Source of the DNA: Spirosoma aerolatum
GTDB taxonomy: Bacteria; Bacteroidota; Bacteroidia; Cytophagales; Spirosomataceae
NCBI RefSeq assembly: GCF_002056795.1
Contig: NZ_CP020104.1
Location: forward strand, 186,001-250,000
Length of the DNA: 64,000 nucleotides
Reading direction: 5' to 3'
Part shown: in pieces, positions 46,820 through 52,298 of the stretch
How the letters are laid out: the number at the start of each line of letters is the position of its first letter
Position numbering within the stretch: position 1 is the first letter of the stretch
Position numbers and translations under genes: made by a program
Notes under the pieces: model-generated
The model's database searches: none
The model's input: the letters and a program-made list of their open reading frames with translations, nothing else
Told to the model about the DNA's origin: nothing

Positions 46820-47666
46820 TCATAAGCTCGTTTCGAGGGCATACGCTAAGAGGAACAATACGATCTTGATTAGAAAACCGGCTTCCGTAATGGCATGAAT
46901 CTTCTTAGGAATGCGCAGCGTGATCTGACTAAACGCCTGCTCAATCCGCTGGCGAACCCTCTTTTTGTAGCCTGCTTGCCAAGGCTGATCAGCCCGCTTG
47001 TTATTGCTCCTGCGTTGAATTTGAACATAGATATGCTCACACTCCGCATACAAGGCTTCCTGTTCATAATCCGTGTGGCCGGCATCACCAAACACCTCGC
47101 TACCCGTGGGCAACTCCAAATGCATCATTTGCAAAGCTGTTACATCGGCCACCGAACCCGGCAGCAGGAAAAATTGCACCGGTTCTTTATAGAAGGTAAT
47201 AATGAGCTGAACCGCCCGGTGGCCCGGCTGAAAACCAAAAAAGAATCGCCGTTTGGAGGCAATTTTGCCCCGGTACTCTTCTCCCTTTACCAGACGGCAA
47301 CGCCCAATCTGGATGTTGTCACAAACAGCCACCGGCAACGAATCAATCACATACTGGTCCGACACATTCAGGGCTTTGAACAAGTCGGCCAGATAGTAGA
47401 ACAGTATACTCAAGGTATGAGCCAGTCGATGTAGCCGTCGATTGAAAGCAGGCTTTTTTTAGTATTATAAAATCATGACTATCAGATATTTAGAGCATAG
47501 CTGAAGCTTGATTGCCGCCGAAGAAGCGGGTCGATATGATAGCGGTCGTCAGCACAATACTATCGGGTACTTTTGGGCTGGTCTGAGGTTTACAGGAGCC
47601 AGGATGGTTAGTTTCCAGAAAGAACTCATCGAGAAAGTAGTAAATTACCAGTACTTTTTCGGACAT
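46820..47666 (-). pseudogene. IS982 family transposase, degenerate
   Basis: The open part (197 residues from a TTG at 47413) has the IS982 catalytic core: the first Asp in YVIDSLPVAVC, the second in FGDAGHTDYE, and the Glu in RQRIEQAFSQI. The N-terminal part is recoverable upstream from ATG 47666 (MSEKVLVIYYFLDEFF, then VLTTAIISTRFFGGNQAS). Two lesions separate them: an in-frame TAA where Tyr is expected after SAML, and one extra A in a run of seven A just before the FNRRLHRLAHT stretch. The repaired length, about 282 residues, is normal for the family. Terminal inverted repeats were not identified. Confidence 0.85.
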
Positions 47667-48605: not shown

Positions 48606-48613
48606 TATGTTTG
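48606..48613 (+). promoter_or_regulatory. Candidate -7 box of the kai operon
   Basis: TATGTTTG fits TAnnTTTG exactly, 19 bases before the kaiC ATG, giving a very short leader. A TTTTG at 48588-48592 is too close (13 bases) to be a normal -33 box. Confidence 0.45.
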
Positions 48614-48632
48614 TTGTATCTCAACCGTACGA

Positions 48633-50339
48633 ATGAGTTCCTACAACCTCAATACACATCAGCTCCCCCTTCTGCCTAAAGCACCTACAGGTATAATTGG
48701 CCTGGATCAAATCACCCATGGTGGCCTGCCCAAAGGAAGGCCAACCCTGATCTGTGGGGAGGCAGGCTGCGGCAAAACCCTCTTCTCACTGGAGTTTATT
48801 GCTCGGGGAGCGCTGGAATTCAACGAGCCGGGGGTATTCATGGCGTTTGAAGAAAAAGCCGAGGAACTGGCTGCTAACGTGGCTTCCCTGGGCTTCGACC
48901 TTCGCCAGCTTCAGGCAGATCAACTCCTTAAAATTGATCACGTACACATCGACCGGAGCGAAATTGAGGAAACCGGCGAATATGACCTCAACGGCTTATT
49001 CATTCGCTTAGGTTACGCCATCGATACTATTGGGGCTAAACGGGTAGTGCTGGACACCATCGAAAACCTGTTTTCAAACCTGACCAATGAAGGGGTGCTG
49101 CGGAGTGAACTTCGACGGCTCTTCACCTGGCTGAAAGATAAGGGGGTAACTACTATTATTACGGCCGAAAAAGGCAACGGTAAATTAACTCGGCATGGTC
49201 TGGAGGAGTACGTTTCTGACTGCGTTATTCTGTTGGATCACCGGATCGACAATCAGATTTCGACTCGGTTACTACGAATCGTCAAATACCGAGGATCAGT
49301 ACATGGTACCAACGAATATCCCTTTTTGATTGATAGTGATGGAATTTCGGTACTGCCCATTACCTCCCTCACGCTGGATCATCCGGTATCCAGCGAACGG
49401 CTTTCGTCGGGTATACCAGCGTTGGATCAAATGCTGGAAGGCAAAGGGTTTTTCAGAGGAAGCAGCATTCTGATTTCGGGAACGGCCGGAACGGGTAAAA
49501 CCAGCCTGGCAGCCTCCTTCGTTCATGCGGCCTGTCAGCGTGGAGAACGGGCGCTTTATCTGGCCTTTGAAGAGTCGCCCCAGCAGATTTGCCGTAATAT
49601 GCGGTCTATTGGAATGGATCTTCAGGGATATATTGATACGGGTCTATTGACTTTTCAGGCATCGCGTCCCACGCTGAATGGATTGGAAATGCATCTGGTA
49701 ACGATTCATAAACTCGTAACCAGGTTTAAGCCGCAGATCGTTGTACTGGATCCGATCACAAATCTGGTTACGGTTGGCTCCATGCGTGAAGTGAGGGCTA
49801 TGCTGATTCGGTTGATTGATTTCTTACAGGCCGAACAGATTACCGTTGTCTTTACGGCGCTTTCGCTGAACACAGTTATCAACGAACAGACCGACGAGGG
49901 AGTTTCATCGCTGGTAGATGCCTGGTTACTGGTACGGGATATAGAGTCGAACGGCGAGCGGAACCGAGGGCTGTATGTCATGAAATCCAGGGGTATGAAG
50001 CATTCAAATCAGGTGCGCGAGTTTGTCATTACCGACGAGGGACTGACTCTGATCGATGTGTATCTGGGTGCCGAAGGGGTATTGGTGGGATCGGCGCGGG
50101 AAGCGCAGCAGTTGCAGGAAGTTACGGGGGTTGCCCTGCGCGATCATGCGGTTTCGCGAAAAGATCGGGAAATTGAACGAAAACGGCTGGTGCTGGAATC
50201 GAAAATTGCCGGCCTGAAAGAAGAGTTTGAGTCGCTTCAGGAGGAACTCAATAAATCGTTTACGGAGGAGGAACTGCGCAAGGAAATCATGGAGCAGAAC
50301 CGGGAGCAGCTCACCCGTAATCGGCATAGTGGCCAGTAA
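48633..50339 (+). CDS. kaiC: KaiC-type circadian clock ATPase/kinase
   Basis: The 568-residue protein has two RecA-like domains. CI carries P-loop GEAGCGKT (42-49) and catalytic Glu73/Glu74; CII carries GTAGTGKT (283-290) and Glu313/Glu314. The CII autophosphorylation pair aligned with Ser431/Thr432 of Synechococcus KaiC is Ser425/Ser426, and the neighbouring Thr is conserved as Thr420. After about residue 480 the protein departs from the cyanobacterial form: a charged, predicted coiled coil (about 505-560) replaces the A-loop/KaiA-binding tail. KaiC forms hexamers in the cytosol. It heads a kaiC-kaiB-kaiB-kinase operon. Autokinase activity is likely, true rhythm unproven. Confidence 0.96.
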   Translation: MSSYNLNTHQLPLLPKAPTGIIGLDQITHGGLPKGRPTLICGEAGCGKTLFSLEFIARGALEFNEPGVFMAFEEKAEELAANVASLGFDLRQLQADQLLKIDHVHIDRSEIEETGEYDLNGLFIRLGYAIDTIGAKRVVLDTIENLFSNLTNEGVLRSELRRLFTWLKDKGVTTIITAEKGNGKLTRHGLEEYVSDCVILLDHRIDNQISTRLLRIVKYRGSVHGTNEYPFLIDSDGISVLPITSLTLDHPVSSERLSSGIPALDQMLEGKGFFRGSSILISGTAGTGKTSLAASFVHAACQRGERALYLAFEESPQQICRNMRSIGMDLQGYIDTGLLTFQASRPTLNGLEMHLVTIHKLVTRFKPQIVVLDPITNLVTVGSMREVRAMLIRLIDFLQAEQITVVFTALSLNTVINEQTDEGVSSLVDAWLLVRDIESNGERNRGLYVMKSRGMKHSNQVREFVITDEGLTLIDVYLGAEGVLVGSAREAQQLQEVTGVALRDHAVSRKDREIERKRLVLESKIAGLKEEFESLQEELNKSFTEEELRKEIMEQNREQLTRNRHSGQ

Positions 50340-50366
50340 AGCGTATCCTTTAGTCTTACTTAATGA

Positions 50367-50657
50367 ATGGATCAGCCAGAAGATGTTTGGGAATTACGGC
50401 TCTATGTAGCCGGCAAAACGGCTAAATCAGTAACAGCCCTGAACAATTTGAAGAAATACTGCGAAGAACATTTGCCGGGGAAGTATGTTATTGAAGTAAT
50501 CGATCTGTTAGTGCAACCACAGCTAGCTGCTGGCGATCAGATTCTGGCCGTACCTACACTGGTAAAAAAAGTGCCTGAGCCTATCCGAAAGATTATTGGA
50601 GACTTATCCAATGAAGAGAAAGTGCTGGTGGGTTTAGATATTCGCTCGGCGAAGTAA
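50367..50657 (+). CDS. kaiB: KaiB family protein, first copy
   Basis: The 96-residue thioredoxin-like protein follows kaiC by 27 bases. It has the KaiB core [19 protein letters not shown] and the terminal signature [12 protein letters not shown], both conserved from cyanobacteria. In the cyanobacterial clock, fold-switched KaiB binds the CI ring of phosphorylated KaiC and displaces the SasA kinase. Length is typical. A similar role with the KaiC here is expected (inference), and whether it switches fold cannot be seen. Confidence 0.95.
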
Positions 50658-50664
50658 GAAGGCT

Positions 50665-50982
50665 ATGAGTGAACCATCAGAGGCTGCTGATCTTGAGTTG
50701 GAGGATCGCAATGATACGTATCAACTACGTTTGTTTGTCGCTGGCGCATCGAGCCATTCCGTTCGGGCCATTGCCAATATCAAACGCATTTGCGATACGC
50801 ACCTGACAGGCCGATACTCGCTGGAAATAATTGATGTTTATCAGCAAAAACAGTTGGCCGAATCGGTACAATTGATTGCGTTGCCTTTATTGATCAAACA
50901 GGCTCCCTTGCCAGAACGCCGGTTCGTCGGTGATTTGTCTGATGCAGCTAAGGTAATCAAAGGATTAGGTATTATCAGTTGA
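50665..50982 (+). CDS. kaiB: KaiB family protein, second copy
   Basis: This 105-residue paralogue starts 7 bases after the first kaiB. It shares the core YQLRLFVAGASSHSVRAIAN and the end LPERRFVGDLS, but its acidic N-terminus is about ten residues longer and the proline pattern differs (APLPERR instead of VPEPIRK). Its stop overlaps the kinase ATG (TGATG), so it is coupled to the kinase. It may serve as a separate KaiB input or take the role of the KaiB-like N-terminal domain of SasA (inference). Confidence 0.95.
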   Translation: MSEPSEAADLELEDRNDTYQLRLFVAGASSHSVRAIANIKRICDTHLTGRYSLEIIDVYQQKQLAESVQLIALPLLIKQAPLPERRFVGDLSDAAKVIKGLGIIS

Positions 50983-52298
50983 TGAATCCACCCAAAACAT
51001 ACGAGCAATTAGTTGCGGAAAATGATCTGTTGCGTATCCAGCTAGAAGAAGCGATGGAAACGATTCTGGCAATTCGTACGGGGCAGATCGATGCATTGGT
51101 GGTGGAAGGCAGTCAGGGACATGAACTCTACACGCTGAAAACCGCTGATCAGACATACCGGGTGTTCATCGAAACCATGCACGAAGGTGCTGTAACGCTC
51201 GACAGGCAGGGACTCATTCTCTATAGTAATTCTACCTTTGCGGCTATGGTCGGCCAGCCGCTCTCCAGCGTGATCGGGATTCCGTTTATCAACTGCATTG
51301 CTCCCGATTATCTGTCCATGTACAACGATTTTTTTGAGCAGAGCTGGCAAAATTCCACGAAGCAGGAAATGAGTTTGAAGCAGGGCGACAGTGACAGCGA
51401 ACTTATTTGCTTCGTATCTGCCACGCCCCTGGTGCTGGATGAGGGTCCTTGCCTGAGCCTGATTCTGACCGACCTGACGCTCCAGAAACAAATGCAGGCT
51501 CAGCTAAAAATCAGTAATCAGCAACTGGTCAATCTGAATGCAACGCTGGTGTTGGCCAACCAGTCGCTGAATCGATTGAATCTGAACCTTAAACAGTTTA
51601 CTTACATCGCCAGCCACGACTTGCAGGAACCTTTGCGTAAAGTGCAGCAATTTGGCGATCTGTTGAAAGAGCATTATAGCAGCCAGCTAGGCGATGGGGT
51701 AAATTATCTGGATCGGATGCAGTTGGCGGCAAGTCGAATGTCGACGCTGATTAAGGATCTGCTCAGTTATTCGCGTATTTCCACCAAACCAGAAGCCCTC
51801 CAGCCCGTTTCGCTTAACGAAGTAGTTAATCTGGCGTTGACTGATCTGGAGTTACGCATCCAGGAAACCAATGCCCGGATTGAGGTAGGTTCGCTGCCGA
51901 TGGTTGTGGGCGATGCTTCTCAACTGGGGCAGTTATTTATGAATTTGTTGAGCAACGCCTTAAAATTTCGTCAGCCCGATGATGCGGCTGTTCCGCCCTT
52001 AATCCGTTTGGAGGCCAGCCGAATAGCGACTACCGATTTGCCCGCTTCCATAACCCCTACTGGTGTGGCTCAGGCATATTACCGCATTGATGTTTTAGAC
52101 AATGGTATCGGTTTTGACGAAAAATACCTGGACCGCATCTTTCAGGTATTCCAGCGATTGCATGGCCGAAATGAATTTTCTGGAACTGGAATCGGATTGG
52201 CGATTTGTGAAAAGGTAGTGACCAATCATGGAGGAGCCATTACGGCAAGTAGCCAGGTAGGGCAGGGATCGGTATTTAGTGTGTACTTACCAGCCTGA
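50982..52298 (+). CDS. PAS-domain sensor histidine kinase of the kai operon
   Basis: The 438-residue protein has no signal or membrane helix, so it is cytosolic. Domains in order: an N-terminal coiled coil (about 8-40), a PAS domain (about 60-170), a second coiled coil (about 170-205), HisKA with phospho-acceptor His212 in YIASHDLQEPLRK, and HATPase with N box NLLSNALKF and G boxes DNGIGFDEKY and GTGIGLAI. It starts at ATG 50982; TTG 50979 is possible. The gene is coupled to the second kaiB. It has no SasA-type KaiB-like domain, so signal transfer from KaiC/KaiB would need a different contact (inference). No response regulator is adjacent. Confidence 0.94.
   Translation: MNPPKTYEQLVAENDLLRIQLEEAMETILAIRTGQIDALVVEGSQGHELYTLKTADQTYRVFIETMHEGAVTLDRQGLILYSNSTFAAMVGQPLSSVIGIPFINCIAPDYLSMYNDFFEQSWQNSTKQEMSLKQGDSDSELICFVSATPLVLDEGPCLSLILTDLTLQKQMQAQLKISNQQLVNLNATLVLANQSLNRLNLNLKQFTYIASHDLQEPLRKVQQFGDLLKEHYSSQLGDGVNYLDRMQLAASRMSTLIKDLLSYSRISTKPEALQPVSLNEVVNLALTDLELRIQETNARIEVGSLPMVVGDASQLGQLFMNLLSNALKFRQPDDAAVPPLIRLEASRIATTDLPASITPTGVAQAYYRIDVLDNGIGFDEKYLDRIFQVFQRLHGRNEFSGTGIGLAICEKVVTNHGGAITASSQVGQGSVFSVYLPA

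Follow-up and report, generated by a model that had tools for sequence, protein, structure and literature searches.

Introduction

The closest described relative of the locus reported here, a kaiC-kaiB-kaiB-histidine kinase operon of the non-photosynthetic bacterium Spirosoma aerolatum (assembly GCF_002056795.1, contig NZ_CP020104.1), is the hourglass timer of Rhodobacter sphaeroides (Cereibacter), in which the KaiC tail forms a 12-helix bundle that joins two hexamers and replaces KaiA in promoting phosphorylation, the ATP:ADP ratio resets the timer, and twelve fold-switched KaiBs attach to CI and increase ATP hydrolysis (PMC10076222). The operon lies within a stretch of 64,000 nucleotides (positions 186,001 to 250,000 of the contig, forward strand), hereafter the window, the numbering of which is used for the features below. 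The order kaiC-kaiB followed by a kinase or a GGDEF/EAL protein has already been described (PMC3164672), a kaiC-kaiB-PAS kinase order is known from R. palustris (PMC4794148), and a kinase beside kaiC and kaiB has also been noted elsewhere (PMC10931921, PMC5520375). Schmelling et al. described one all-Bacteroidetes group with only KaiB2/KaiC2-like proteins, where "KaiB2" is the name of a class and not the kaiB2 gene of the present locus (PMC5520375). In the cyanobacterial system, SasA is a competitor of KaiB on the CI ring and binds there without the lateral cooperativity of KaiB (PMC6769508), and CikA binds stand-alone, fold-switched KaiB through the pairing of strands with beta-2, in the manner of KaiA (PMC6378743).

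The S. aerolatum operon is real, conserved and a variant of the known KaiBC timers. We give about an even chance to its being a KaiBC timer without KaiA, of the KaiC2 hourglass kind, equipped with an output kinase of its own that reads the Kai proteins through an N-terminal module (N-module) and with a second, specialised KaiB.

Gene order and distribution of the operon

The four genes are all on the forward strand, separated by gaps of 27, 7 and -1 bases, and their spacing suggests that they are co-transcribed. These open reading frames bear out the arrangement given by a sequence-only reading of the window, the start of which (48606) falls 27 bases before the KaiC ATG. The kinase start is placed at the ATG within TGATG, with a TTG one codon upstream also possible. 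The features of the operon are:

48633-50339, forward: kaiC, 568 amino acids, ATG start, KaiC2 type (open reading frame, Pfam and structure-homologue search)
48756-48779, forward: KaiC CI Walker A motif
48843-48857, forward: KaiC CI EE motif
49479-49502, forward: KaiC CII Walker A motif
49563-49577, forward: KaiC CII EE motif
49905-49910, forward: predicted phosphosites Ser425-Ser426, the counterparts in the alignment of R. sphaeroides Ser413/Ser414 (site identity from PMC10076222)
50154-50261, forward: putative KaiC C-terminal coiled-coil segment, residues 508-543 (alignment to the 8dba tail and heptad pattern)
50367-50657, forward: kaiB1, 96 amino acids, Ile73/Val88 at R. sphaeroides positions 68/83, predicted to favour the ground state and to be metamorphic
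50665-50982, forward: kaiB2, 105 amino acids, Glu84/Lys99 at positions 68/83 and Arg34 at position 18
50982-52298, forward: histidine kinase, PAS-HisKA-HATPase_c, 438 amino acids
50982-51170, forward: kinase N-module, residues 1-63, ahead of the PAS domain, Kai-specific, no Pfam match
51069-51104, forward: N-module signature AIRTGQIDALVV
51612-51632, forward: kinase H-box
51942-51968, forward: kinase N-box
52098-52115, forward: kinase G1 box
52182-52199, forward: kinase G2 box

Pfam recognises KaiC/ATPase in two stretches of KaiC, both KaiBs (91 and 79.2 bits, cut-off 27) and the PAS, HisKA and HATPase_c domains of the kinase. The genome, a single contig of 7,959,595 bases, possesses one double-domain KaiC and two KaiBs. 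A KaiA search of the genome was without match, in line with the earlier reading, and the same search recovers KaiA in Synechococcus elongatus; the photosynthetic reaction-centre family PF00124 likewise has no match in the genome.

Loci of relatives were fetched with KaiC alone, yielding 206 stretches, the best 80 of which (the named loci) represent the closest relatives and are uninformative on distant ones. The survey of gene order that the sequence-only reading had called for returned the order kaiC-kaiB-kaiB-kinase on one strand in 80/80 named Bacteroidota loci. Amongst 149 relatives, a KaiB over the cut-off occurs in 36 (the window included), each with a tandem pair and three with an extra single KaiB elsewhere, and the four-gene order is found in all 35 of the other Kai-bearing relatives' loci. 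A KaiB over the cut-off is present in 37 of 395 genomes from across the phylum, 30 of which provided 31 loci (five genomes were already counted, and another two, whose KaiB matches are partial, were left out). Fifteen of these loci have the four-gene order, eight have kaiC-kaiB and a downstream enzyme, three have kaiC-kaiB, two have kaiB between two kinases without kaiC, and kaiB-kaiC, kaiB-kaiC-kinase and kaiB alone occur once each. Seventeen plasmid records had a KaiB match; the nine that were read comprise one four-gene operon (Pararhizobium), four alphaproteobacterial kaiC-kaiB-kinase operons, two lone kaiB and two of other order, and the remaining eight are from Cereibacter sphaeroides. 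The operon is thus stable across the class and no curiosity of one genome.

Several loci depart from these arrangements (L numbers denote individual loci). The lone kaiB of L186 and L213 is flanked by two kinase-like genes, of which the downstream one starts receiver-like, with no kaiC in the stretch. The Hymenobacter plasmids L216 and L222 have a stand-alone kaiB with no kaiC nearby, preceded in L222 by a response regulator and accompanied by a large PAS protein on the opposite strand. In L197, L201 and L214, kaiC-kaiB occurs without a kinase-like gene or an N-module signature in the fetched stretch.

KaiC of the hourglass type

By sequence comparison, the KaiC of the window is KaiC2-type, of the R. 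sphaeroides hourglass kind. Both of its RecA-like domains are intact in their Walker A motifs and EE pairs. Amongst solved structures the nearest is R. sphaeroides KaiC (8dba), which aligns with residues 15-551, the tail among them, at 646 bits, compared with 323-380 bits for the other full-length solved KaiC chains (R. sphaeroides excepted), and the NCBIfam model NF006799 matches at 750 bits (cut-off 408). The two traits of the KaiC2 type, a Ser-Ser pair in CII (Ser425-Ser426) and a C-terminal coiled coil recognisable from the 8dba-tail alignment and the heptads, are both present. Across the named loci the pair reads SS in 77/80 and AS in one, with two unread by the search pattern. The KaiCs of L205, L206 and L210 retain Ser-Ser and have lost the coiled coil, with 28, 28 and 22 residues past the RGMxH motif, respectively, against at least 100 in the other loci measured (the plasmids being outside this measurement).

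Divergence of the two KaiBs

The two KaiBs, described as diverged in the sequence-only reading, have the same residue at 42 of 94 aligned positions. In R. sphaeroides KaiB, the numbering of which is used for all KaiB positions here (18, 21, 68, 79, 83, 84 and 86), the substitutions I68R, V83D and N84R together shift the protein from 11% to 86% fold-switched (PMC10808063). The 132 loci with KaiB pairs gave 113 distinct pairs, many from close relatives, and a thinned set of 70 loci. Position 68 is hydrophobic in 113/113 KaiB1 and polar in 95/113 KaiB2 (81 charged), and position 83 is hydrophobic in 113/113 KaiB1 and polar in 101/113 KaiB2 (77 charged); polar residues at both positions occur in none of the 113 KaiB1 and in 89/113 KaiB2. 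The thinned set follows the same pattern, with KaiB1 hydrophobic in all 70 loci at each position and KaiB2 polar in 56 (position 68) and 61 (position 83). Reference KaiBs fit at these positions: the ground-state proteins of R. sphaeroides and S. elongatus have Ile/Val and Val/Ile, respectively, and that of Legionella, which was crystallised fold-switched, has Glu/Ser. As the KaiBs differ systematically at fold-switch positions, some division of labour between them is likely.

Structural models were predicted with AlphaFold2 from 11 sequences per KaiB, including the ten closest from the 80 named loci, following the closest-ten approach of PMC10808063. In the PDB, the 17 best Foldseek matches of the KaiB1 model are without exception ground-state KaiB, with TMq of 0.77-0.85 against no more than 0.48 for fold-switched KaiB, and the 11 best matches of the KaiB2 model are all fold-switched KaiB (TMq 0.64-0.75), with ground-state KaiB at most 0.42 amongst its best 50 matches and the SasA N-domain (1t4y) at 0.65. 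With low confidence, and as a pointer and not as proof, the models suggest a ground-state KaiB1 and a fold-switched KaiB2.

Neither protein reaches the circadian KaiB equivalog TIGR02654 (98.9 bits for KaiB1 and 76 for KaiB2, cut-off 145.3). KaiB2 scores 33.6 bits with the SasA model, compared with 20.1 for KaiB1, a scan that does not discriminate within the modelled sets, where all 11 KaiB1 and all 11 KaiB2 sequences match the KaiB and SasA models alike. The possibility that KaiB2 is a SasA domain proper was discarded, given its far higher score with KaiB models (77.9 bits with the KaiB model). Independent KaiB duplications were also considered and set aside, as a single KaiB2 clade of 70 rows, Pararhizobium included, is compatible with the data (p-AU 0.82); the tree with this clade lies 37 log units above a free quick search, a weak comparison made on 98 columns with four long-branch rows excluded.

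By alignment, positions 18 and 79 correspond to Arg23/Glu84 of the KaiB-KaiB contact in Thermosynechococcus (PMC6769508). Basic residues occupy position 18 in 103/113 KaiB2 and 5/113 KaiB1, and acidic residues occupy position 79 in 113/113 KaiB1 and 48/113 KaiB2. The second contact pair, Lys26/Asp91 (positions 21/86), is patternless, being basic at 21 in eight KaiB1 and six KaiB2 and acidic at 86 in 21 KaiB1 and five KaiB2. One of the two lateral charge pairs is complementary between KaiB1 and KaiB2 and the other is not.

A Kai-associated module at the front of the kinase

The kinase has intact H, N, G1 and G2 boxes and, as the sequence-only reading had it, no KaiB-like domain: Pfam finds none, and the match of the SasA model is confined to residues 172-437 of the kinase, so that the N-terminal KaiB-like domain typical of SasA is lacking. 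Nor does it resemble CikA, with no GAF, receiver or pseudo-receiver match and one PAS-like sensor match below the cut-off. What precedes the PAS domain is a module peculiar to Kai loci. A search of the genome with the whole kinase gives 81 matches including itself, and none of the other 80 extends into residues 1-46; residues 1-63 match only once in the genome. Amongst the 149 relatives, residues 1-63 match once each in 36/36 Kai-bearing genomes and in 0/113 others, and Kai-bearing and Kai-less genomes both occur inside the genus of the window, the module being present only with the former.

When a model built from 18 N-termini, including three from alphaproteobacteria, was run against the 395 phylum genomes, it returned 28 strong hits (E below 1e-23) and two weak ones (5e-4), 30 in all. 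All 28 strong hits lie within 300 bases downstream of kaiB, in 20 genomes with tandem KaiBs and eight with a single KaiB at the operon; the 358 genomes without a KaiB over the cut-off have no strong hit, and both weak hits fall in KaiB-less genomes. Of 159 kaiB loci, 146 possess a kinase-related protein starting within 600 bases past the last kaiB, 144 of which carry the signature A[IV][RKH]xGx[VI]DA, with two cautions: the whole kinase served as query for these relatives, which by construction counts proteins like it in the front end only (six HD_5 proteins), and some genomes are doubly named. The two exceptions are L186 and L213, which have no kaiC in the stretch, and a six-frame search of the fifteen loci outside the 144 did not find the signature.

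The enzyme behind the module varies. In the window it is a HisKA kinase, in L198 and L215 (two KaiBs) a hybrid HisKA kinase, in L217, L218 and L220 (one KaiB) an HWE kinase, and in six of six loci with one KaiB (L189-L192, L194 and L203) an HD_5-domain enzyme; the module lies directly ahead of PAS in all 15 proteins scanned. In L219 (one KaiB), the annotation gives a PAS protein and a separate kinase. The combination of N-module, PAS and HD_5 suggests a non-kinase output of the Kai timer, and, because the module is kept ahead of unrelated HisKA, HWE and HD_5 domains, its partner may be a Kai part. The KaiC coil was tried as the sole docking site of the N-terminal helix of the kinase and rejected, because the tail-less loci L205, L206 and L210 have kinases that retain the module.

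Amongst 72,556 plasmids, a Rhizobium module query (E<=1) matched 12 records, all kaiB-bearing and ten of them weak (E 0.4-0.9), and missed the module-bearing Falsirhodobacter; a second module query gave four matches, all Kai plasmids, and a Pararhizobium query at 1e-5 matched only itself. The association of module and Kai is thus established for Bacteroidota and plasmids only.

Surroundings of the operon

A promoter candidate, TAnnTTTG at 48606-48613, occurs upstream of kaiC in 13/81 loci compared with a shuffle mean of 9.7, and a two-box pattern occurs in 0/81. The motif resembles the consensus of the Bacteroidetes -7 element, but on these counts the candidate was dropped. A transposase-like remnant lies upstream of the operon (window 46823-47413, reverse strand), with DDE_Tnp matches under the Pfam cut-offs. 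A search for a conserved response-regulator partner amongst the 18 largest neighbour families found none beyond the operon in more than 14/132 loci; a protein that reads as LuxR-type from its sequence occurs upstream in 7/132 loci. Elsewhere in the genome (1142523-1143239) there is a rhodopsin-family match (PF01036), a possible light-energy link to a timer driven by ATP:ADP.

Discussion

In the KaiA-less hourglass proposed here, KaiC would probably autophosphorylate on the Ser-Ser pair, with the coiled coil standing in for KaiA and the state of KaiC tracking the ATP:ADP ratio. KaiB1 would be the metamorphic partner, slowly switching fold, binding the CI ring and promoting ATP hydrolysis and dephosphorylation. 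KaiB2 would be a copy shifted, in most of the class, towards the fold-switched state and docking without the slow refolding step; it may resemble the thioredoxin-like domain of SasA minus the attached kinase and serve as a ready-folded CI partner or competitor. The kinase would read the Kai complex through its own N-module, which is common to HWE kinases, hybrid kinases and HD-domain enzymes of other kaiC-kaiB operons, and would then phosphorylate some regulator. A bolder combined version, to which we assign a low probability, splits the metamorphic cycle between the two KaiBs, with KaiB1 providing the delay and a fold-switched KaiB2 seeding a mixed KaiB1-KaiB2 ring on KaiC, and places a Kai-reader module on interchangeable output enzymes. 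One lateral charge pair (18/79), complementary between the KaiBs, fits such a mixed ring. The reader would be a third coupling route to KaiC beside the KaiB-like domain of SasA and the pseudo-receiver of CikA, and, like KaiA and CikA, it possibly acts by strand pairing with the beta-2 edge of KaiB.

Several observations weigh against this account. Position 84, the third of the published trio, is not divergent (Gly in 113/113 KaiB1 and 94/113 KaiB2), two of 27 single KaiBs are polar at both switch positions, and the mean confidence of the models (pLDDT, predicted local distance difference test) is low, at 59.5 for KaiB1 and 59.7 for KaiB2 with 11 sequences each. Because six of the 113 KaiB2, including those of the out-of-class phylum pairs L198 and L204, are hydrophobic at both positions, the duplication may predate the switch signature. 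The KaiB of Legionella, which is polar at both, reportedly does not bind its KaiC. As for the module, nine of the 37 KaiB-bearing phylum genomes lack it, 709 proteins in a protein collection match the Pararhizobium N-module in gene contexts that are not readable, and the genome counts are not independent events, because the module is passed on together with the Kai genes in a single operon.

The alternatives are not mutually exclusive, and their likelihoods need not sum to one. The sequence-only reading had proposed a SasA acting in trans, in which KaiB2 is the adaptor that carries the state of KaiC to the kinase, KaiB1 is the antagonist and the kinase contacts KaiB2. Contact between a stand-alone KaiB and a kinase is, by analogy with CikA, not new, and that precedent (PMC6378743) speaks for the proposal, as do the adjacency of kaiB2 and kinase in 80/80 named loci (at most 10 bases apart in 78/81, the window included), the N-module protein adjoining the pair in 20/20 tandem-KaiB genomes of the phylum set, and the higher score of the window KaiB2 on the SasA model. 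KaiB2 nevertheless scores far better as a KaiB, and KaiB2 is not an obligatory adaptor, because kinases occur in one-KaiB operons, namely the four alphaproteobacterial plasmids with kaiC-kaiB-kinase and L205 and L206. The latter, of one genus, have kaiC, kaiB1 and an orthologous kinase, one KaiB match per genome and no KaiB-like frame in the ~240 bases between kaiB1 and kinase; they belong to the eight of 28 N-module genomes with a single KaiB, the other six having an HD_5 enzyme. The TGATG overlap read as translational coupling is present, although it is only one of several kaiB2-kinase spacings (-41 to +14 across 81 loci, by longest open reading frames), and kaiB is also closely coupled to the kinase in single-KaiB operons (the genes overlap by 4 bases in Falsirhodobacter, Sinorhizobium and Rhizobium and are 5 bases apart in Cereibacter). 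What survives of the proposal is the absence of KaiA and of a SasA-type domain and a split of the KaiBs at fold-switch positions; an adaptor role peculiar to KaiB2 is not supported, the kinase seeming to carry its own reader, and the operon is conserved for partly other reasons than those first given. We regard the SasA in trans as unlikely.

It is equally doubtful that KaiB2 acts off the KaiC ring, serving as an independent signalling or stress protein of the thioredoxin fold that the operon keeps for co-regulation, a role that has reportedly been proposed for the Legionella KaiB. The KaiB2 model is closest to that protein (4kun, TMq 0.75), KaiB2 is the more variable copy (most long terminal branches of the tree lead to KaiB2 or single KaiBs) and its absence is tolerated in L205 and L206. 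Its polar changes fall in the C-terminal half, which forms most of the KaiC interface (PMC6378743). Set against this, the second KaiB adjoins kaiB1 in 36/36 Kai-bearing relatives and KaiB2 has largely retained the PxPxRRxxGD(L/M)S segment; classical thioredoxin chemistry is not expected, because the KaiB2 of the window contains only one cysteine and lacks a CxxC motif. Compatible with either view of KaiB2, and rather unlikely, is a kinase that senses a small molecule through its PAS domain and forms an input to KaiC and not an output, the N-module being a structural PAS cap that travels with the operon. A redox input role has been suggested for the R. sphaeroides kinase (PMC5520375, PMC10931921), and the position of the module immediately before PAS in all scanned proteins agrees with a cap. 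Such a cap would, however, be at odds with its single match in the genome, with the failure of the other 80 kinase matches to reach residues 1-46, and with its retention before unrelated HisKA, HWE and HD_5 catalytic domains. The output-kinase hourglass remains the account that we favour.

A Kai-associated module common to unrelated output enzymes would be a concrete segment to work on and could serve to locate Kai outputs in genome sequences, and a natural KaiB pair differing at known fold-switch positions would separate delay from docking without mutation, in a system that occurs in cultured Bacteroidota (Dyadobacter, Larkinella and Spirosoma). Neither of these two features, the separation of the KaiBs by fold state or the front end that different enzymes of Kai operons have in common, was found in the literature: searches, with subscription papers mostly outside their coverage, returned neither a KaiB pair split by fold state nor a common N-terminal module on enzymes beside kaiC-kaiB. 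A common N-terminal domain has been described on kinases beside kaiC in genomes without kaiB (PMC3164672), and has not been compared with the present module.

Amongst known systems, the R. sphaeroides hourglass shares with this locus a KaiC2-type protein with Ser-Ser and a coiled-coil tail, the kaiC-kaiB-PAS kinase order and the kinase N-module, and differs in having one KaiB and an HWE kinase where the present locus has two KaiBs and HisKA. The cyanobacterial KaiABC system with SasA and CikA has KaiC, KaiB and histidine kinases in common with it; unlike that system, the present locus lacks KaiA, its kinase has no KaiB-like domain, pseudo-receiver or GAF match, and both of its KaiBs fall below the circadian equivalog cut-off. 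The KaiB of Legionella pneumophila (Lpp1115, PDB 4kun) is the nearest fold to the KaiB2 model and is polar at 68 and 83, yet it is reportedly encoded as a single KaiB, unlike the pair here. Plasmid p3 of Pararhizobium qamdonense shares the two-KaiB gene order and the N-module, although its kinase is a hybrid with a receiver and its second KaiB is polar at 83 only.

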